Shown here one piece after another: positions 3,898-25,594 of a stretch of DNA of 25,594 bases (position 1 is the first letter of the stretch; each line of letters opens with the position of its first letter). The stretch spans positions 1-25,594 of IMG/VR virus record IMGVR_UViG_3300032086_002762, one strand, 5' to 3'. The notes below the pieces were generated by a model. The model did no database searches and was not told where the DNA came from. It was given only the letters and a program-made list of their open reading frames with translations. Source of the DNA: a virus. Both the position numbers and the translations under genes were made by a program.

Positions 3898-4712
3898 GTA
3901 GAATCACAAATAATAATCCTCCCCAACGAGGCCAAAAGCTTACAAGCACAGATTTGAACCAAGTCTTTACAGATGTAAACAATGCATTTCCTATGGATGG
4001 AGACAATGTTCGGAATGAAGGAATCGATCAACCTGCATTTAATCTTGCAGGCACATCGGGAAAGTCTGGTATTATATTGATTGCAGCAGATGATGATGAA
4101 ACATCAACACCAACAGTTGTAAATGCCAATACTGCTTCTGTTCCTCCATTTGATGTACCTGTAGCAATACAAACCTGGAGTACAGGTATTGTACCATTTA
4201 ATGAAGATAAGATAATACGAGTGTATTGGCAGTTTGAAAATGAGATTTTTGGAAGCGCAGCACAACCTATTACAGCAGACACAAATGCTACAGCATGGGC
4301 TGTATGGTTAGAGTGGCAGTTATCAAGTGGAGGAGCATGGAATCCTGTACCATTTCAAAGTGATTTTGAAGATATTCTTGTTTCTCCAGCTATATATGGT
4401 GCATCGACATTAAATACTTATGGATGTACGATTGTGAATCATGTATATATACATCAAAAGTCAGGGACAACAGAATACGATTTTCCTCCTGATAGGACAA
4501 AGTATGGATCTTGGTGGTTTCAAGCAGACCAAGATTATACTATTTATGGTTTACGGTTAATGTGTAGAGGATTGATACAAAATTTTTATAACTCTACTCC
4601 TGTGAATCCTCCTGCGTCAAATGCTTGGAAACTTGTATTGTCTCCTGTATCTACACATCAGATTATAGTTAATGCAAGTCAGATGGCATATATGATAATG
4701 GAGGAACAATGA
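3894..4712 (+). CDS. Putative tail-appendage protein 2 (unknown function)
   Basis: A 272-aa protein. I chose the ATG at 3894 because it overlaps the previous stop as ATGA and is preceded by a purine-rich AGGTAGGTGGAG. An in-frame GTG at 3888 would lie inside that sequence. The N-terminal segment PQRGQKLTSTDLNQVFTDVN, followed by DGDNVRNEGID, is of the kind seen at the base of phage fibre and spike proteins, where an N-terminal module anchors a trimer to the tail. The rest is beta-rich with many Trp, Asn and Thr (WAVWLEWQLSSGGAWNPVPF), suggesting an exposed jelly-roll-like domain. It shares position and size with its two neighbours and may be distantly related to them. The virion location is inferred from context. 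Confidence 0.6.
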   Translation: MSRITNNNPPQRGQKLTSTDLNQVFTDVNNAFPMDGDNVRNEGIDQPAFNLAGTSGKSGIILIAADDDETSTPTVVNANTASVPPFDVPVAIQTWSTGIVPFNEDKIIRVYWQFENEIFGSAAQPITADTNATAWAVWLEWQLSSGGAWNPVPFQSDFEDILVSPAIYGASTLNTYGCTIVNHVYIHQKSGTTEYDFPPDRTKYGSWWFQADQDYTIYGLRLMCRGLIQNFYNSTPVNPPASNAWKLVLSPVSTHQIIVNASQMAYMIMEEQ

Positions 4713-19020: not shown

Positions 19021-21229
19021 CAGAGGGGGCGAGATACCATCCAGACTTATTCTTTCCATTACGTCTACAACGCTTGCCATTGTTTTGTAGCTGGCATCCA
19101 AGACGCAATAGCAATGCAGGATAATAGTTCTCGTAGTTGGAAGGTTTGATTGAAGTAGATGCATATACTGTATCAATCATCTCTTGGATTGTAAAGAATT
19201 TTCCTGCCTGATTGATAAGGTATTCATCTACCATTGTTTCATGTATACCTGTCACAGCACGAGAGGAGTTCTCTGCGGAGGATAATGCCTGTTCTTCTGG
19301 AGTAAGCCACCATTCCTCTCCAGCTTGCAATCGATGAACAGCCTCTGCCCATAGTTGATCACGATGAAGTTCAAGTAGCTTTGTGGAATAACCCATGTGA
19401 TTCTCTTTGCTCTTACATTCAACGAACCAATACCTACGAGAACCTGTTTTGTCTTTGAAGATACCGACATCATCGTCATTGGTAGAGCCTGAGAACACAG
19501 CAGTACGGGGTACTTTCACTTCGTGCTTCGTGTACGCTCGTCTGAATGTATCATACTGCTCATCCAAGAAGTTCTTTACAATGTTTGCATCCTTCTTGGC
19601 TAAGTTGGCAAGTTCTGCCATCTCATGAATCCATGCAGTACGCAGAATGGATCGACCATCCTTCTCTCCGATGTTGATCTGAGAAGAGTTGTACCATGAG
19701 TAGCCTGTAATGGGACAACATCCGGCCATGATTCGAAAGAACGTACCTTTTCCATGTCCTTGTCCAGCTTTCAATGTAAGCATGGTGTCCACTTTGCATC
19801 CAGGCTTTAGTGCACGAGCCACAGCGGAGATTGCCCATTTGCGACCATATATTCTATTGAGTTTGTTGTCCTCTGCTTTCATGTAGTCAATAAGGATGGT
19901 GTCTAGTCTCTCTTCTCCATCCCATACTAGACCATTGAGATAGTCTGTAAGAGTATTGCGTGTGTCCCGTACACATGCCAAGAGGATAGCATACTGTACA
20001 TCTTTCAGGTTTACTTTGCGACCATGAAAGTATTTCCTACGCATATCATTCATGATTTGTATTTCCATTGCATCAGTCATAGCATCTCCTTTGGAGAAAC
20101 ACTTCTGCCTTATCTCGCAAAACCACAGGTCTAGGTTCATTTGTTCAAGAACAATAGACATGTTGTCGATGACACACAATACTTCCCATTGGGTATGTCT
20201 ATCTAGGTAGTTTATTTCAAGACCATTGTCACTACCCACACAGTCCATGTGGGTGCGCAGTTTATTGACACACGTCAATCGATAGCGTGATAGCCCAAAG
20301 GCATTCGTGCTTCGATGGATGAATGCACTACCCATTGTTCCAGAACCTGGAGCATAGCACTGATACTTGCCATCTCTTTTGGGTAGATTGTACCATTGTT
20401 CGATGTACCATTCGAAGGTACGTGTTTGTCCATCGTGTCCCGTAATCGGATAGTGAGCAGGACAAGTGATTACTCGGAATCTATCAGAAGTAGAATGATT
20501 AGAAGCAAAAGCATTATCTGTACTTGGAGCGACAGTATTGGATTGTGTGGGTAGTGTACGAGTATCGGGTACAATAGACATAATGGAGTTGACGTCAATC
20601 ATTCCTCCATCCCCACGAGATTGCCAAGAATGTACTTCTCTGTCGATTCGTGTGCATGGATAGAACCAAAGCCGAGAGGGATCTTTTGTTTGTATGTCAT
20701 TTTCAGGAAAATATGTACACATGTATTGCCATATTTTTTTGTACATATTGGGCGTACATGGTTTGCTGAGGGGTATAATAACTCGGAATGCATTGGAGCC
20801 ACATTTGTTTGAGTAGGAAGAATAAGCATTATAGCATAACCCACTATTCATTAGGCGTTGAAACACAGACTCTGTTTGTTCATTCGTTAACTTGTCCATA
20901 TCCATAATGAATGCATTAATATGCTTCACGTTTTTTATGGAACGAGAACCATTTTTATTTGACCATGTGACCGGACAAAAGAGGGGAGCATCGAGCTTGC
21001 CAAGTTCTATTATCTTGCCTTTGCTATCTGTCTTTGTGGCCATGTTGGATGTAATCAAAAACTCAAGCTGGCCAGCTTGTAGTGTAGTTTCTACTGCATT
21101 GGATAGAGCATTTGTATAGTGCCATCCTTTGTTGGGTGCAGGATGACGTGTAGCTTTTATTTGCATGTCAGCTGCTTTAATGTTGTCAGTTGTAATGTAC
21201 TGTGATATATTGTCTTTACTAATAATCAT
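19013..21229 (-). CDS. Primase-helicase: AEP-like primase fused to VirE-type SF3-like/AAA+ ATPase
   Basis: A 738-aa replication protein with AAGGAAA before the ATG. The N-terminal half resembles an archaeo-eukaryotic primase: hydrophobic-D-x-D in NAFIMDMDKL (Asp110, Asp112), then GSNAFRVIIPLSKP and DPSRLWFYPC. The C-terminal half (about 425-610) matches the virulence-associated E family: LNGLVWDGEERLD, Walker A GQGHGKGT (489-496), Walker B-like AWIHEMAE (Glu536), sensor-like FSGSTND and an arginine-finger region GSRRYWFVE. The tail 690-738 may be a small winged-helix. The protein should synthesise primers and unwind DNA at the phage fork. The Walker A has Gly where Ser/Thr-Thr is usual (GKGT instead of GKST). 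I infer that it starts replication, possibly at the motif array near 25 kb. Confidence 0.88.
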   Translation of the reverse strand: MIISKDNISQYITTDNIKAADMQIKATRHPAPNKGWHYTNALSNAVETTLQAGQLEFLITSNMATKTDSKGKIIELGKLDAPLFCPVTWSNKNGSRSIKNVKHINAFIMDMDKLTNEQTESVFQRLMNSGLCYNAYSSYSNKCGSNAFRVIIPLSKPCTPNMYKKIWQYMCTYFPENDIQTKDPSRLWFYPCTRIDREVHSWQSRGDGGMIDVNSIMSIVPDTRTLPTQSNTVAPSTDNAFASNHSTSDRFRVITCPAHYPITGHDGQTRTFEWYIEQWYNLPKRDGKYQCYAPGSGTMGSAFIHRSTNAFGLSRYRLTCVNKLRTHMDCVGSDNGLEINYLDRHTQWEVLCVIDNMSIVLEQMNLDLWFCEIRQKCFSKGDAMTDAMEIQIMNDMRRKYFHGRKVNLKDVQYAILLACVRDTRNTLTDYLNGLVWDGEERLDTILIDYMKAEDNKLNRIYGRKWAISAVARALKPGCKVDTMLTLKAGQGHGKGTFFRIMAGCCPITGYSWYNSSQINIGEKDGRSILRTAWIHEMAELANLAKKDANIVKNFLDEQYDTFRRAYTKHEVKVPRTAVFSGSTNDDDVGIFKDKTGSRRYWFVECKSKENHMGYSTKLLELHRDQLWAEAVHRLQAGEEWWLTPEEQALSSAENSSRAVTGIHETMVDEYLINQAGKFFTIQEMIDTVYASTSIKPSNYENYYPALLLRLGCQLQNNGKRCRRNGKNKSGWYLAPSDD

Positions 21230-21235
21230 TTTGTT

Positions 21236-21289
21236 TCCTTGTGATTGTTATTTGTGTTGTGTGGGAGAGGGTGTGGTGTCCTCTCCCAC
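21236..21289 (-). promoter_or_regulatory. Hairpin leader before the primase gene
   Basis: A perfect 10-bp inverted repeat, GTGGGAGAGG (21261-21270) and CCTCTCCCAC (21280-21289), with a 9-base loop. On the minus strand it overlaps the last codons and stop region of the ribbon-helix-helix gene and precedes a C/A-rich stretch and AAGGAAACAAAATG. There is no T-tract, so it is not a classical terminator. It occupies the same junction position as the hairpins of the other minus-strand leaders. Confidence 0.7.
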
Positions 21290-21759: not shown

Positions 21760-22001
21760 GTAATCTCCTTTTGTGTGATGTACTCTCGTACAAGTTTCTT
21801 GTGATAACAGTTCTTGCCATACGTGTATGCTTGGCATAAGCATATGACTCCCCAACCTGGATTGGAGAGACGTTTCACTGCATGTGTATGAGGAGGATTC
21901 TCCCCATCCCATTGGATGTGTATGGTCACCAGCTTGTTCTTTGTAGTTGGATGTGTCCATTCATCTCGTACATGTGATACAATCTTACGTTCTTGTTTCA
22001 T
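21756..22001 (-). CDS. SWIM zinc-finger protein
   Basis: An 81-aa protein consisting mostly of a SWIM-type zinc finger. The ligands C-x-C-x8-C-x-H are Cys54, Cys56, Cys65 and His67 in ICLCQAYTYGKNCYHKKLV, preceded by the usual strand-rich lead-in (THAVKRLSNPGWGV). SWIM fingers mediate DNA or protein binding in helicases, transposases and recombination regulators, and stand-alone phage copies are of unknown role. The start follows AGGAG, and the upstream region holds leader module A. It shares its first codons (MKQERK) with the ribbon-helix-helix gene. The stop overlaps the next ATG. Confidence 0.75.
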   Translation of the reverse strand: MKQERKIVSHVRDEWTHPTTKNKLVTIHIQWDGENPPHTHAVKRLSNPGWGVICLCQAYTYGKNCYHKKLVREYITQKEIT

Positions 22002-22010
22002 GGTCTTATT

Positions 22011-22072
22011 CTCCTGTGTGGTGTGGTGTAGTCTGTTGTAGACTCAAAATGTGGCATGCATTACACATGCCA
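22011..22072 (-). promoter_or_regulatory. Two-hairpin leader module A (before SWIM gene)
   Basis: In minus-strand order: hairpin 1 TGGCATG/CATGCCA (22072-22066 and 22058-22052), then CATTTTG, hairpin 2 AGTCT-ACAAC-AGACT (22044-22030), a G-free ACACCACACC stretch and AGGAG. A 39-base block spanning both hairpins is identical to module B. Confidence 0.8.
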
Positions 22073-22078
22073 AGTAGA

Positions 22079-22267
22079 CTATCGAAGTAGTTGTTCGATG
22101 TGTTTGTAGATGGTTGGCATGCAGTCTTTGCATACCAACTGAGCAAGATGTGGGTATGATGACATATGTGTACGAACAAGTTCGTATGATTCCAAGTCAT
22201 CGCATATCATCTCTTCCAAGATCAGAAGAGTTAGTATATCATGTTGATCTTCTGTGGTGTGATACAT
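22079..22267 (-). CDS. 62-aa hypothetical protein
   Basis: The start at 22267 is set by AAAGGAG 5-11 bases upstream. The protein is acidic at the N-terminus and helical (DILTLLILEEMICDDLESYE, then THMSSYPHLAQLVCKDCMPT). A C-x-x-C at VCKDC is the only notable motif and could bind metal, but it is isolated. The leader before it is the short form (one hairpin plus the C/A-rich spacer). No family recognised. Confidence 0.55.
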   Translation of the reverse strand: MYHTTEDQHDILTLLILEEMICDDLESYELVRTHMSSYPHLAQLVCKDCMPTIYKHIEQLLR

Positions 22268-22271
22268 GGTG

Positions 22272-22306
22272 TCTCCTTTGTGGTGGTGTTGGTGGGGTTA
22301 TCCCCA
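22272..22306 (-). promoter_or_regulatory. Short leader with GGGG/CCCC hairpin enclosing the upstream stop codon
   Basis: TGGGG-TTAT-CCCCA (22293-22306) forms a 5-bp, GC-rich stem whose four-base loop, read on the minus strand, contains the TAA stop of the methyltransferase-like gene. It is followed by a C/A-rich ACACCACCAC and AAAGGAG, like the other leaders but without the second hairpin. Confidence 0.65.
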
Positions 22307-22864
22307 TTGGTCTGCCATCGCTTGTGCAATGCCAAGAAATGTTTTGGATCGTTTTGTCTTGGAACGATGCAGTAATGTCCAAGAACCTTCGCATGGTACA
22401 ACGTTGGTAGGTTGTAATGGGGACAATCCTCGCGTCCACAGTAGTGTGCGCTTGGAAAATGGATGTCCAAAATGATATGGTTGTATCACTTGCGAAGGAG
22501 AAGGAAGTTTAAAAATGCGTAGAGGAGTTGGATTCTCTATGCATACTTTTGCAATGGGTGCTGTCCAAAGTCTATCGAAAAAGACTCTGGCTTCAAAGCC
22601 TAGCTGCAATCTTTTGGGATCGGGCTTGCCAGGTATTTTGAACAACCTATTGGCTCCAGCTCGTGACAAGTAAGTGCATGGTGGGAATGCAATAAGCATA
22701 TCCCAATGTTCTCTTAGCAATACTTTTATGGCATCATCTTGGATGTGCCATTCGGGATTGTCTCCTGATGTGGCGAGTATATCGCATGAGTATGCTTCGT
22801 GTCCCTTATCGCGGAACGCTTTGCATACTCTTTGGGATTCCTCACATGCTATAAGTATTTTCAT
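22298..22864 (-). CDS. Cytosine-C5 DNA methyltransferase-like protein
   Basis: A 188-aa protein. The ATG at 22862-22864 is chosen because it follows AAAGGAGACAAC and begins the family-typical MKILIACEESQRV. The longer frame to 22915 would run through the leader. Signatures are the N-terminal SAM-type GEESxxV-like strand, SCDIL, the motif PPCT (61-64, AFPPCTYLSR) with the potential catalytic Cys63, IENP (109-112), and a late HPFSKRTLLW. These match a compact phage family related to C5 cytosine methyltransferases. A classical target recognition domain is absent, and ENP replaces the usual ENV, so activity on cytosine is probable but unproven. No partner restriction gene is seen. The likely role is DNA self-protection. 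Its stop lies in a hairpin loop. Confidence 0.75.
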   Translation of the reverse strand: MKILIACEESQRVCKAFRDKGHEAYSCDILATSGDNPEWHIQDDAIKVLLREHWDMLIAFPPCTYLSRAGANRLFKIPGKPDPKRLQLGFEARVFFDRLWTAPIAKVCIENPTPLRIFKLPSPSQVIQPYHFGHPFSKRTLLWTRGLSPLQPTNVVPCEGSWTLLHRSKTKRSKTFLGIAQAMADQWG

Positions 22865-22869
22865 GTTGT

Positions 22870-22930
22870 CTCCTTTGTGGTGTGGTGTTAGTCTTGTAGA
22901 CTCAAAATGTGGCATGCATTACACATGCCA
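22870..22930 (-). promoter_or_regulatory. Two-hairpin leader module B (before methyltransferase-like gene)
   Basis: Minus-strand order: hairpin 1 TGGCATG/CATGCCA (22930-22910), CATTTTG, hairpin 2 AGTCT-ACA-AGACT (22902-22890), AACACCACACCAC, AAAGGAGACAAC, ATG. The loop of hairpin 2 is three bases, shorter than in the other modules, with an unchanged stem. Confidence 0.8.
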
Positions 22931-22936
22931 AGTAGA

Positions 22937-23119
22937 TTATGCAGACAAATCTTTGCTACGTTTATCGTACATGTCTTTAAGTTCATCAGATTCTTCTTCT
23001 GTTAGTTCAAAGTCAGATGTTGTTTCTTGGTGGCATTGCGGAAAGTCTGCCTCGCCATATTCCATGTACTGTTCTTGCATAAGATTCAATAGGTACTCAA
23101 ACGCTTCTTGCATTTTCAT
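22937..23119 (-). CDS. 60-aa acidic hypothetical protein
   Basis: Starts at 23119 after AAAAGGAGACAAC. A second in-frame ATG is two codons later. The protein is helical and strongly acidic (EAFEYLLNLMQEQYMEYGEA, then FELTEEESDELKDMYDKR). The acidic, DNA-like surface would suit a small inhibitor of host proteins, as is common among phage early genes, but nothing specific supports this. No family recognised. It is flanked by leader modules C upstream and B downstream. Confidence 0.6.
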   Translation of the reverse strand: MKMQEAFEYLLNLMQEQYMEYGEADFPQCHQETTSDFELTEEESDELKDMYDKRSKDLSA

Positions 23120-23123
23120 GTTG

Positions 23124-23195
23124 TCTCCTTTTGGTGTGGTGTTAGTCTTGTTGTAGACTCAAAATGTACCAACTAGATGTATAGTCTAGTCGGTA
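23124..23195 (-). promoter_or_regulatory. Two-hairpin leader module C (before 60-aa gene)
   Basis: Hairpin 1 differs from modules A and B: an 11-bp stem from 23067+100 region, precisely 23167-23177 with 23185-23195, seven-base loop. The pair 23171/23191 is A-C on the plus strand but U-G in the minus-strand RNA. It is followed by CATTTTG, hairpin 2 AGTCT-ACAACA-AGACT (23159-23144), AACACCACACC and AAAAGGAG. Confidence 0.8.
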
Positions 23196-23215
23196 TGTGT
23201 GTTAGGCTTTCAAGT

Positions 23216-24061
23216 TTACTTTGCGACCTGAAAGTATGCGTAGGCTCGTGCCTTACGAGCTGCATGCAAGGTATTTGTAGCACCATGTAGCTTCTCGTTG
23301 ATGTGTTTGTTATTGCCTTTTCCTGAACATGCCATGCATGTAATACATTGGTAGGGTAGACCATCCTTATCTGTCTTGTCAGAGGATGCCAAGCATCGTA
23401 TGCCTTCTGTGGGTTCAACATCATCATAGACTAGGAAGGTATTCCATCCCTTGTCTATCGCTTGTTGTCGCTCCAATGCAGAATCTACAGATGCCATACA
23501 AATATCTTTGTACTCATGTTCTGTACGCCATTGATGCGTATATCCGGTAAATGACTTCGCATATTTCAAAAGCTCTTGCCATACCCATACAGGTACAGCT
23601 GCGGGATCTCCAGCGCTACCAAGACGTACTTCAAGACCTTTGACAAGTTCTTGTGATAGGCTCATGTCAATAGGATTCTGTCCTTTGGTACTCTTCCAAT
23701 GTGATGTAAGGTTCGACCAATTGACATAGCATCCATTGCCTCCGTTATACTTACAGTCACCACATACACTAGGTGATGCAGCTTTGTAGTTATCGAATGG
23801 CTTAGTAAAGATAGGAAGGATGGCAACTTGTACCATCGCTCCCGTTTTGCTATTCTCTGAATCCTTTGCAAAGCCGCTCATGGTGACCATGATAGGAGTC
23901 TCATTGTCTAGTAGGGATATACCCTTCCATACAACAACGCTTGTTTTCATCTTGTATGCTTTTGCAATGGCCTTGTTTAGTCCCTTGTTGATATGTTGTC
24001 GGAGTAAACGTGCGCCGTTCACAAGTTTGCGGCTTGCAATAAGTTCGATTGTATCTTTCAT
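23216..24061 (-). CDS. Conserved Cys-rich phage protein (DUF7227-like), function unknown
   Basis: A 281-aa protein starting after AAAAGGAAACAAC. It carries the pattern GFAKDSENSKTGAMVQ (63-78), then CGDCKYNGGNGCYVN (Cys100, Cys103, Cys111), RLGSAGDPAAVPVWVWQELL (146-165), TGYTHQW (172-178), and a C-terminal QCITCMACSGKG (Cys239, Cys242, Cys245). I recall this whole arrangement from a widespread phage/bacterial family of unknown function, I think called DUF7227; the name is from memory. The two Cys clusters may bind zinc or an iron-sulfur cluster. A radical-SAM-like fold is possible but unproven. It lies in the early operon behind leader module D. It may act in nucleotide or DNA modification, which is only suggested by the methyltransferase-like neighbour. 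Confidence 0.7.
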   Translation of the reverse strand: MKDTIELIASRKLVNGARLLRQHINKGLNKAIAKAYKMKTSVVVWKGISLLDNETPIMVTMSGFAKDSENSKTGAMVQVAILPIFTKPFDNYKAASPSVCGDCKYNGGNGCYVNWSNLTSHWKSTKGQNPIDMSLSQELVKGLEVRLGSAGDPAAVPVWVWQELLKYAKSFTGYTHQWRTEHEYKDICMASVDSALERQQAIDKGWNTFLVYDDVEPTEGIRCLASSDKTDKDGLPYQCITCMACSGKGNNKHINEKLHGATNTLHAARKARAYAYFQVAK

Positions 24062-24066
24062 GTTGT

Positions 24067-24134
24067 TTCCTTTTGTGGTGTGGTGTTATCGTCATAGTAG
24101 ACGCAAAATAGTAGTCAGTTTTGTATCGTGACTA
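24067..24134 (-). promoter_or_regulatory. Two-hairpin leader module D (before 281-aa gene)
   Basis: Hairpin 1 TAGTCA/TGACTA (24134-24112, 11-base loop), then CTATTTTG, hairpin 2 CGTC-TACTAT-GACG (24103-24090), AACACCACACCAC and AAAAGGAAA. The stem of hairpin 2 has a C-G closing pair where modules A-C have A-T. A 39-of-40 base block is shared with module E. Confidence 0.8.
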
Positions 24135-24145
24135 GGATAGGCATA

Positions 24146-24388
24146 CTAGAAAATATCAAAGATTGTATCGACAGAATCTTGGCTGTCGATACAATACCAT
24201 GTAGATTCCGTAGCATCTATTAGATAGACCTTGTCCATCCCTTTATCAATCTGAATTATGTATTGAAACATGAATAAATCTATAAGGGTTTCATCATACT
24301 TTGTACATGCATACAGCTGTTGTGTTTTTTCCTTTCCGTATTTTTTTATTTGGGTACGAAGTATTTTTATGATGTCATTAATAGTCAT
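24146..24388 (-). CDS. 80-aa hypothetical protein
   Basis: Starts at 24388 after AAAGGAAACAAG. The N-terminal helix is basic (MTINDIIKILRTQIKKYGKE) and leads to a mixed helix/strand body with an acidic end (DSQDSVDTIFDIF). No recognisable domain. Codon use and the leader type match the rest of the minus-strand operon. It is one of the first genes transcribed if the operon promoter lies in the non-coding region beyond 24.6 kb, so a host take-over role would be typical but is inference. Confidence 0.6.
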   Translation of the reverse strand: MTINDIIKILRTQIKKYGKEKTQQLYACTKYDETLIDLFMFQYIIQIDKGMDKVYLIDATESTWYCIDSQDSVDTIFDIF

Positions 24389-24392
24389 CTTG

Positions 24393-24460
24393 TTTCCTTT
24401 GGTGTGGTGTTATCGTCTTGTTGTAGACGCAAAATAGTAGTCAGTTTTGTATCATGACTA
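24393..24460 (-). promoter_or_regulatory. Two-hairpin leader module E (before 80-aa gene)
   Basis: Hairpin 1 TAGTCA/TGACTA (24460-24438), CTATTTTG, hairpin 2 CGTCT-ACAACA-AGACG (24429-24414), AACACCACACC, AAAGGAAA. Compared with module C the loop is the same and the outer stem pair changes from A-T to C-G on both sides, a compensatory change. Confidence 0.8.
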
Positions 24461-24471
24461 GGATATATCAA

Positions 24472-24582
24472 TCAACGTGGGGACATATCAATCAACATGT
24501 GTATTTGAATGAAAGCTACATTGAGAACGAATAACATTGTCGCAATGATCCAAAGTATATCCTCGGTTTTTAAGGTTTTCAT
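24472..24582 (-). CDS. 36-aa single-TM membrane peptide
   Basis: A very short gene read directly from the minus strand: ATG at 24580-24582, TGA at 24472-24474. The ribosome site is AAAAGGAAACAAA, of the same form as for the larger genes of the operon. The product has a short charged start (MKTLKTED) and a hydrophobic helix (ILWIIATMLFVLNVAFIQIH), then a short tail ending MSPR. It is probably an inner-membrane peptide made early. The function is unknown; superinfection exclusion or host membrane modulation are possible. The leader hairpin upstream (module F) and lack of any other gene here support it being real. Confidence 0.6.
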   Translation of the reverse strand: MKTLKTEDILWIIATMLFVLNVAFIQIHMLIDMSPR

Positions 24583-24586
24583 TTTG

Positions 24587-24658
24587 TTTCCTTTTGTTGT
24601 GGTGGTGTAGAATAAACATAAAATGAGGATATGATAATCAAGTGACTATCATACCCTC
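24587..24658 (-). promoter_or_regulatory. Leader module F (first gene of the minus-strand operon)
   Basis: A 12-bp stem, 24625-24636 with 24647-24658 (10-base loop), is the longest of the leader hairpins. The pair 24629/24654 is A-C on the plus strand but U-G in the minus-strand RNA. It is followed by CATTTTATG, an ACACCACCACAAC stretch and AAAAGGAAA. The second small hairpin of modules A-E is missing. Hairpin plus ATTTT could act as a weak terminator or attenuator. Confidence 0.7.
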
Positions 24659-24952
24659 GTAAATATGTACGCTGTAATAATACAACATACGAGTAAATAA
24701 TAACACACACACACCGCGCTTCATATCCCTAGGGACTTTATCCCCTAGTCTTCGCTTGTAAAGGCTATGTAATAGAGGCTATCGATATAAACTATCTAAG
24801 TGTATTACAGGACACTAACGCTAATTTGTTATTGGTTCTGAGAGAGAGAGAGAGAGAACAAGAACTTTTATGAAAGTATTTTGTCCATGGTTTTAATATA
24901 CACCGATAGTATAGAGCCGTCAAATCTTTTTTTTCACTTTTTTTTTTATCTT
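24659..24952. other. Gene-free region upstream of the minus-strand operon, left part
   Basis: No ORF with a ribosome site was found. Contents: a CTAGGG/CCCTAG inverted repeat (24729-24734 and 24743-24748) containing the 8-bp palindrome CCCTAGGG, a (GA)9 tract at 24840-24857, and T-runs near 24927-24948. The sequence CCGATAGTATAGA (24903-24915) resembles CCGTATAGTATAGA (25112-25125). A promoter for the minus-strand operon is expected here, but I could not find a convincing -35/-10 pair. Confidence 0.5.
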
Positions 24953-25427
24953 TGTTCGCGCTATGTTCACGCGTGTTCTTTGATGATTATTTTTGTTCAT
25001 AAAATAAATTTTAAAGTGTTCATATATATAGATGAAAATGAACAGTCATGAACACTAAAAGAACACGATAAAAAACTCTCTATATATAGACTCTTTTAAT
25101 ATATTTTTATACCGTATAGTATAGACTTATATACAAGTGTTCAAGGATGAACAAAGACAAACTTTTTTCAGGATTCTGTACGAAAGAAGGCAACGTACAA
25201 ATATTTAAATAAGTTGGTACAAGTGTTCGAACACTTATAGGAAGCGTCTATATTAAACAGTGTTCAAAAATATATCTGCTTTCCGTAGCTAAACAATGTT
25301 CATAAGTCTTTGCGTTTCATTGCGTAAAGGTTATCGTTATACCGAACAGTGTTTAATCGCTCCTTCTTTGCAAGAGATGAGAGGACAAAGACATGTAGGA
25401 AAGATGAACAGTGTTCAATACTGAACA
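24953..25427. repeat. Array of 18 TGTTC / GAACA half-sites (putative origin or operator array)
   Basis: TGTTC begins at 24953, 24964, 24974, 24994, 25017, 25138, 25224, 25261, 25297 and 25412. GAACA begins at 25040, 25050, 25061, 25149, 25229, 25344, 25406 and 25423. Many are extended to GTGTTCA or TGAACAC. About one occurrence would be expected by chance in 475 bp. Arrangement includes the palindrome at 25221-25236, TGTTCA-4-TGAACA at 25138-25153, and four copies of (A/G)AACAGTGTT(C/T) near 25256, 25344, 25406 and 25423. Such iterated half-sites in AT-rich, gene-free DNA fit binding by a replication initiator or repressor. Confidence 0.75.
25221..25236. promoter_or_regulatory. 16-bp perfect palindrome AAGTGTTCGAACACTT
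   Basis: Two inverted GTGTTC/GAACAC half-sites abut exactly. It is the most symmetric site of the array and a good candidate for the strongest binding site of a dimeric protein encoded by the phage. Confidence 0.75.
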
Positions 25428-25476
25428 GTGTTTGGAGTATTGCGCTCTTGGCATGTCAATAGCCGGCTGTGTTTGT

Positions 25477-25560
25477 TTTGGCACGCTCTTTGCAACTGCA
25501 AGAACCATGCCAATAGGGTTTGGCACGCTCTTTGCAAGTGCAAGAGCCATGCCATTAGGG
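25477..25560. repeat. Two tandem 42-bp repeats with long stem-loop potential
   Basis: Copies 25477-25518 and 25519-25560 differ at three positions (20, 28, 37 of the unit). Each contains TGGCA ... TTGCA-2-TGCAA ... TGCCA/T, so nested inverted arms. In the second copy GCTC/GAGC also pairs, giving one extended stem with a single bulged T. The 11-mer CATG(C/T)CA(A/T)TAG occurs in each unit and again at 25452 and 25577, so the pattern reaches the window edge and may continue. Confidence 0.8.
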
Positions 25561-25594
25561 GGAGCCCCAAATATGACATGTCAATAGATGGGGG

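Follow-up and report, generated by a model that had tools for sequence, protein, structure and literature searches.

A small H-type pseudoknot at gene junctions of unrelated phages, and the operon modules that contain it

Genes of a minus-strand operon in a 25.6-kb viral fragment from IMG/VR (record IMGVR_UViG_3300032086_002762; 25,594 nucleotides (nt), 38% GC; hereafter the window) are preceded by related RNA modules, and two of these, modules D and E, open with an H-type pseudoknot that is common to many unrelated phages and is positioned by the stop codon upstream of it. A preliminary description of this DNA, which had drawn attention to a two-hairpin leader before most genes of the operon, missed this element: the complete two-hairpin plan is confined to one clade, and the pseudoknot is phage-wide. 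From its placement we infer that it acts as a junction roadblock that stabilises the upstream message at its 3' boundary, a reading to which we give a probability of about 0.4.

Hairpin 1 of modules D and E (CCTAGTCA-YGATACAAAAC-TGACTA) forms a pseudoknot of ~28 nt, UAUC-C-UAGUCA-N-GAUA-CAAAAC-UGACUA, in which a first stem (S1, TATC/GATA in the DNA) and a second stem (S2, TAGTCA/TGACTA) are joined by loops L1 (C), L2 (one base) and L3 (CAAAAC). The copy in module E lies on the minus strand at 24438..24465, with T as L2, 6 nt behind the TGA of the preceding open reading frame (ORF); that in module D lies on the same strand at 24112..24139, with C as L2, 6 nt behind the TAG of an ORF of 80 amino acids (aa). 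Two other viral loci, L005 and L045, hold counterparts with altered yet complementary stems, and a first degenerate pattern drawn from all of these sequences matched 113 viral-contig stretches. In 62 of the 64 distinct matches, the arms of S2 were complementary at the positions that the pattern had left free. Scanning for the general motif used degenerate patterns of the form NNC-C-UGAGYA-N-GNN-…AAAC-UGCUCA, and a broader pattern matched at least 120 viral-contig stretches.

Across 172 distinct contexts, not all of them phylogenetically independent, S1, in which the bases immediately preceding CC pair with the loop, was Watson-Crick paired at offset 1 in every case and with all four pair types (172/172; shuffle mean 82), at offset 2 in 170 (shuffle mean 75) and at offset 3 in 122, or 137 counting G-U pairs (shuffle mean 72). 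S2 pairing served as a filter for these contexts, so only S1 offsets 1-3 and the 62/64 result for S2 are free of selection, and CCT, the A-U pair closing S2, G9 and AAAC are invariants imposed by the pattern. A gapless alignment of 40 sequences had 97.8% of its cells paired and a covariation score of 0.656, compared with 0.236 when shuffled and with no more than 0.133 for all slid versions. The shared element is an H-type pseudoknot with the consensus S1 NNNC/GNNN (3-5 base pairs, bp), L1 C, S2 UGAGYA/UGCUCA or a covarying equivalent, L2 of one base and L3 of ~7 nt ending in AAAC. Modules D and E fit this consensus with a 4-bp S1 (TATC/GATA), and both possess the CC, the A-U closing pair of S2, the G opening the 3' strand of S1 and the AAAC at the end of L3. 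A covariance model scored module D at 31.6 bits (E = 1.3e-6) and module E at 33.5 bits (E = 3.5e-7), both being among its training sequences, and did not match modules A, B, C and F, which use other hairpins. An apparent fit of modules A and B to the pseudoknot topology (TAC/GTG, TGGCA/TGCCA) was no better than chance fits within the same 3.6 kb and was discarded.

Named carriers of the pseudoknot include Roseobacter phage SIO1, Lentibacter phage ICBM1, Celeribacter phage P12053L, crAss-like cr7_1, Lactobacillus phage phiAQ113, cyanophage S-RIM4 (Synechococcus), Moraxella phage Mcat1, Mycobacterium phage Labelle, Paracoccus phage ParKuw1 and, with S1 only partly paired, Erwinia phage Berlingot; phages of Rhodobacteraceae are represented. 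Among 18 carrier or relative records searched, 17 held 1-8 pattern matches each, and one (L007) held none. The first pattern matched only 11 times in 84,980 bacterial and archaeal species genomes, and S1 is paired (5 bp) in a single one of these matches, L169; the remaining ten were rejected as hosts or prophages, being chance matches that lack S1, eight of them with a broken S2 as well. The pseudoknot is essentially viral. Rfam 15 gave no match in the window, and none at the elements of L045, L050, L055 and L100 even at E values up to 5, and searches of the open-licence literature for the sequence and for related motifs turned up no description of the pseudoknot. It represents a previously unnamed, phage-wide family.

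The element has a strict orientation and a narrow position with respect to genes. Both flanking ORFs were in sense orientation in 117 contexts, and both were antisense in 5. In 114 contexts, an ORF of at least 60 codons terminates no more than 40 nt upstream, and 12 more copies lie behind shorter ORFs with a Shine-Dalgarno sequence (SD). The spacer between the stop codon and S1 rises sharply in frequency at 4-5 nt and peaks at 5-7 nt. Among the 114 stop codons, TAA (80) outnumbers TAG (24) and TGA (10), and the in-frame extension past the stop is short (median about 7 codons). In contexts with a start codon downstream, its SD begins a median of ~20 nt after the element, and the ten bases that follow the element are G-poor (9%). 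The neighbouring genes sampled were diverse and unrelated (ribonucleotide reductase, DUF932, peroxidase, Hsp20), with no gene for a single-stranded DNA-binding protein among them, and in the Lentibacter and Celeribacter Sioviruses a copy stands behind the ribonucleotide reductase gene.

Eleven copies precede tRNAs (Asp, Ile, Asn, Cys, Lys, Gly and Arg), and in 9 of the 11 the tRNA begins 3-5 nt after the element. In crAss-like cr7_1, a copy lies within the intervening segment of a permuted (two-piece) tmRNA (L301 1130-1486; cr7_1 20629-20985), a few nt before the coding piece. A separate observation concerns L100, a tRNA-bearing phage region with three pseudoknot copies, where two Pistol self-cleaving ribozymes score above the Rfam threshold (3978-4030 and 4201-4263). 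Neither an ORF stop nor a tRNA was found just upstream in 44 of the 172 contexts. Some elements that do not stand behind an ORF (L079 1254, L084 7124, L057 314) are followed by a shared CCGCAAGG...TTGACAA(T/A)TGTCAGTGG, and this CCGCAAGG-type subgroup is perhaps part of a larger non-coding RNA.

Within the window, modules A-F lie on the minus strand before the ATGs at 22001, 22864, 23119, 24061, 24388 and 24582, respectively. A descriptor consisting of a stem of at least 6 pairs, ATTTT, a stem of at least 4 pairs, an SD and ATG matched six times in the operon compared with 0.015 matches expected per dinucleotide shuffle, which bears out the recurring two-hairpin plan of the preliminary description. 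AACACCACACC is exact in modules B-E, and module A has the variant ACACCACACC with CAGGAG. Single-sequence folding backs both hairpins in modules A-E, with z-scores that are strong for C and F (-4.5 and -5.1) and modest for A, B, D and E (-1.6 to -2.3). Since A and B (93%) and D and E (89%) are near-duplicates, the six copies are not independent. Because hairpin 1 lies a short distance downstream of the preceding stop codon, it is as much a part of the junction as of the leader that follows.

In module E, the pseudoknot is followed by the linker CTATTTTG (24437-24430), hairpin 2 (CGTCT/AGACG, 24414..24429, minus strand), ATAACACCACACC, AAAGGAAA and the ATG at 24388; in module D, by the same linker (24111-24104), hairpin 2 (CGTC/GACG, 24090..24103, minus strand), an A/C-rich leader, an SD and the ATG at 24061. 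Some folds suggested that the SD is sequestered by a UCC before hairpin 1, a candidate that we rejected because this UCC is part of S1 and the C of L1. The remaining modules, all on the minus strand, have other types of hairpin 1. Module C has an 11-bp hairpin 1 with a 7-nt loop (23167..23195), CATTTTG (23166-23160) and an AGTCT/AGACT hairpin 2 (23144..23159); module B has a hairpin 1 of the TGGCATG type (22910..22930), CATTTTG (22909-22903) and hairpin 2 AGTCT ACA AGACT (22890..22902) before its ATG at 22864; and module A has the same hairpin 1 as B (22052..22072), CATTTTG (22051-22045) and hairpin 2 AGTCT ACAAC AGACT (22030..22044) before the ATG at 22001. Module F, before the first gene of the operon, has a 15-bp hairpin 1 (24625..24658) and ATTTT (24624-24620), and it lacks hairpin 2 while retaining ATTTT-N2-GTNTA. 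As a side observation, the long 5' untranslated region carries GGTGTGTGTGTGTT both in the window (24715-24698) and in the related phage locus L003 (about 1037-1050), and a prediction has this sequence base-pairing with module F's A/C-rich leader and thereby closing off the start region of the first gene.

L003, whose primase is 77% identical, provides the comparison with a relative; two further IMG/VR contigs are near-identical to the window and add no independent information, and narrow DNA patterns for the full module match only these contigs and L003. The same descriptor finds six modules in L003 compared with 0.01 expected (dinucleotide shuffle), with compensated stems and swapped hairpins, and an ATTTT-containing linker follows every module in both the window and L003. 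Hairpin 2 takes the forms AGTCT/AGACT, CGTC(T)/(A)GACG, GGTC/GACC and CGTATA/TATACG, with two-sided changes at two positions as judged by eye; a MAFFT alignment of the full modules misplaced the long-loop L003 forms, and pairs were not counted on it. The TGGCATG-type hairpin 1 of module A has a compensated GGGATG/CATCCC form in L003, and module C has a counterpart there behind the same upstream gene, its hairpin 2 being CGTATA/TATACG. Three L003 modules have a pseudoknot-type hairpin 1, and two lack hairpin 2, with only ATTTT-N2-GTNTA left. The window and L003 differ in the type of hairpin 1 before the orthologous methyltransferase and 80-aa genes (module B, for instance, is replaced by the pseudoknot type before the same methyltransferase gene), indicating that modules have been exchanged between junctions.

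Relatives with a 46-56% identical primase contained no full module when the descriptor was combined with an A/C-run requirement, so the complete plan is specific to a small clade; those relatives that were read retain an A/C-rich leader before AGGA and ATG. Elsewhere in the wider family, in L034 (about 523-563) and further relatives, long AC repeats immediately precede AAGGATAACA-ATG, which suggests that an A/C-rich open leader is a family-wide style of translation start. These comparisons support the earlier proposal that the phage reuses a single RNA device at junctions whose genes are translated independently and, through the compensatory changes in the six L003 modules, the structural conservation in a related phage on which that proposal depended. 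The claim of two hairpins per module holds for A-E, with the amendment that hairpin 1 of D and E is a pseudoknot; module F and two L003 modules have no hairpin 2. The further claim that junctions without a module are translationally coupled is only partly correct: the junctions from the methyltransferase to a 62-aa gene and from the 85-aa gene to the primase do not overlap, and each has its own hairpin.

Taken together, the module can be described as a gene-junction cassette comprising a stop codon, a short spacer, a stable RNA structure, a single-stranded AUUUU-type linker, usually hairpin 2, a G-free A/C-rich leader, an SD and ATG. The pseudoknot lies just beyond a ribosome that terminates on the upstream gene, and most of the complex that initiates on the next gene lies downstream of it, a placement that would allow it to remain folded while both genes are translated. 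The polycistronic RNA would then be cut downstream of the pseudoknot, either in the linker, through a host endonuclease, or at a following tRNA or tmRNA, through RNase P, after which the pseudoknot would bar 3'-5' exonucleases and the upstream message would be stabilised. After an RNase P cut at an adjoining tRNA, the upstream message would end with the pseudoknot and a tail of 3-5 nt, so short that 3'-5' exonucleases would have little to hold on to. In the window, the cut would fall in the AUUUU linker, the pseudoknot or hairpin 1 would guard the upstream 3' end, and hairpin 2 with the unstructured G-free leader would give the downstream gene a clean start of its own. The anatomy, covariation, spacing, orientation, distribution and tRNA adjacency are observed; the cutting, the exonuclease blocking and the effect on expression are what we infer from them. 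A related suggestion in the preliminary description, an RNase processing site giving stable 5' ends, survives in that a role in processing or stability is among the best readings, and it does not survive for RNase III (stems of 6-15 bp compared with about 20 bp).

Lactobacillus lacks RNase E, and Erwinia and Moraxella lack RNase J. A counterpart common to all carrier hosts, such as PNPase, RNase R, the ribosome or RNA polymerase, is therefore likelier. No enrichment of a general RNase E-like motif was seen after the element in other phages (32 compared with 34). We tentatively suggest the wider possibility of a universal phage RNA device, one compact pseudoknot that is shared by unrelated tailed phages of many bacterial phyla, is essentially absent from bacterial chromosomes, and fixes the boundaries of transcripts at the junctions of genes and tRNAs by acting on a pan-bacterial counterpart (a 3'-5' exonuclease, the ribosome or RNA polymerase). 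If so, phages would have in common an RNA part, so far uncharacterised, that like terminators functions across very different hosts. It would permit concrete tests of how phages reach unequal gene expression within one transcript and of how tRNAs are excised from phage messages while the neighbouring mRNA is spared, and synthetic operons would gain a compact part for stabilisation. With a covariance model of the motif, many phage junctions could be annotated at once.

Several observations weigh against the 3'-boundary roadblock. Both the spacing behind stop codons and the closeness to tRNAs could reflect compact genomes together with the need to stay outside the ribosome; the tight conservation of C1, of S2 identity and of AAAC goes beyond the requirements of a simple roadblock and could point to a specific factor that recognises the element, some of these invariants having been set by the search pattern; and modules A, B, C and F do without the pseudoknot. 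In addition, TTTT is enriched within 15 nt downstream of the element (36 compared with 8.7), so some copies could be terminators. The same enrichment favours a transcriptional element acting on RNA polymerase at gene ends, whether as terminator, attenuator or RNA antiterminator, as do the presence of RNA polymerase in every host and a loose scan in which four window modules, A, B, C and F but not D and E, look terminator-like. Most copies, however, lack a U-tract, 112 of 172 having no more than three T among the 8 nt that come next, and the U-run of modules D and E is 4 long and starts 3 nt beyond the stem. The element also occurs within operons and ahead of tRNAs whose transcription is required, and we consider this explanation improbable. 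The more specific idea of a weak terminator joined to a promoter finds no support in the window modules: the region has 10 promoter-like sites compared with 14.2 expected from shuffles and none between a module hairpin and its gene, the U-tract is only four long and lies 0-4 nt off the stem, and the D/E stem has only 6 bp.

The 5-7 nt spacer from stop codon to S1 equals the distance at which frameshift pseudoknots act, and the window and L003 modules occur only at non-overlapping junctions. Both points would fit a roadblock facing the mRNA entry of a ribosome with the stop codon in its A site, which would block post-termination scanning or modulate termination and recycling and thereby make translation of the next gene independent. 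The copies before tRNAs and in the permuted tmRNA argue against it, as do the 44 contexts with neither an ORF stop nor a tRNA just upstream, and we regard it as unlikely. One variant, a pseudoknot promoting stop-codon readthrough, was rejected in view of the predominance of TAA and the short in-frame extensions. We consider it quite unlikely, in turn, that the element is a docking site for an RNA-binding protein that would nucleate on the pseudoknot and from there extend along the open leader, with repression or protection as the outcome, as gp32 does at the T4 gene 32 leader: the identities of loops and stems are conserved and the layout, a pseudoknot followed by an unstructured stretch to the ribosome-binding site, resembles the gene 32 operator (PMC3014915), but a shared host factor would be needed in unrelated phages that have no evident common protein, whose adjoining genes are unrelated and in which copies also precede tRNAs. 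A recombination cassette, that is, junction repeats kept for gene shuffling by homologous exchange with little regulatory function, would account for the differing hairpin-1 types before orthologous genes and for the near-identical A/B and D/E copies. As a sole function it is very improbable, since compensatory changes in S1 and S2, wobble pairs and strict orientation speak for selection on RNA structure.

Gene-shuffling elements of this kind have been proposed in the PeSL cassettes of T4-type phages, junction stem-loops that carry early promoters and terminators; in contrast, no promoter was detected at the present modules. REP and other 3'-stabilising hairpins likewise place structured RNA shortly behind bacterial stop codons, but these are plain hairpins of unrelated sequence and are bacterial rather than phage elements. 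Closer in form is the T2/T4 gene 32 pseudoknot, which similarly has a one-nucleotide L1, a second stem of 6-7 bp and a 7-nt L2. It shares the H-type topology upstream of an open stretch and ribosome-binding site, and was described in 2010 as perhaps the only viral example autoregulating translation (PMC3014915); we do not claim membership for the present element. The gene 32 leader is A+U-rich and serves one gene and one ligand (gp32), whereas the motif described here has its own conserved sequence, occurs at up to 8 sites per genome and is found behind stop codons and before tRNAs in unrelated phages.

Exonuclease and ribosome blocking have both been demonstrated for the coremin Xrn1-resistant RNA (BNYVV GUCCGAAGACGUUAAACUAC; PMC10520033). 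A sequence likeness, a three-pair stem closed over a loop starting with Y and followed by a UUAAACU spacer, may serve as a lead. The definition of coremin RNAs calls for a YGAD or YGNNAD loop, a GUUAAAC-type spacer and a separate second hairpin, hp2 (PMC10520033); here the loop is 8 nt long and pairs downstream as S2. Coremin also belongs to eukaryotic (plant) RNA viruses, meets a 5'-3' exonuclease and has no pseudoknot S2. The SAS/ESAS of cluster K mycobacteriophages are repeated per-gene elements at translation starts, and an inverted repeat lies upstream of half of them (PMC3203893). Their sequences are unrelated to the modules, which lack GGGATAGGAGCCC; ESAS carry 17-bp inverted repeats that do not covary as RNA would and are regarded as DNA sites, whereas the module stems covary.

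The genes served by modules B-F (22298..24582, minus strand) encode a 36-aa peptide, the 80-aa ORF, a 281-aa ORF (phrog_2554), a 60-aa ORF and the DNA methyltransferase (phrog_757); the operon otherwise comprises small proteins, an 85-aa protein and a VapE-type helicase-primase. A candidate sigma70-type operon promoter, TTGACG-17-TATATT, lies on the minus strand at 24895..24923, and similar sequences are seen by eye upstream of the operon in relatives. A search of genome contigs with the primase returned no relative, and a 2330-aa protein had no match among named phages. Many TGAACACTGTTCA-like palindromes, possibly replication iterons or operators, occur at 25000-25594 of the window and also upstream of the operon in L003, L005 and L007. 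At the 22298-22267 junction, a short GGGG-ATAA-CCCC hairpin ahead of the next gene has the methyltransferase stop codon in its loop, and L003 (about 3800) keeps this hairpin as GGGGATAACCC. A strong hairpin at 21261-21289, within the 3' end of the 85-aa gene and upstream of the primase, recurs in all 14 loci that have upstream sequence, with stem sequences that mostly differ; owing to its A-rich 5' flank, it resembles an intrinsic terminator for plus-strand transcription.

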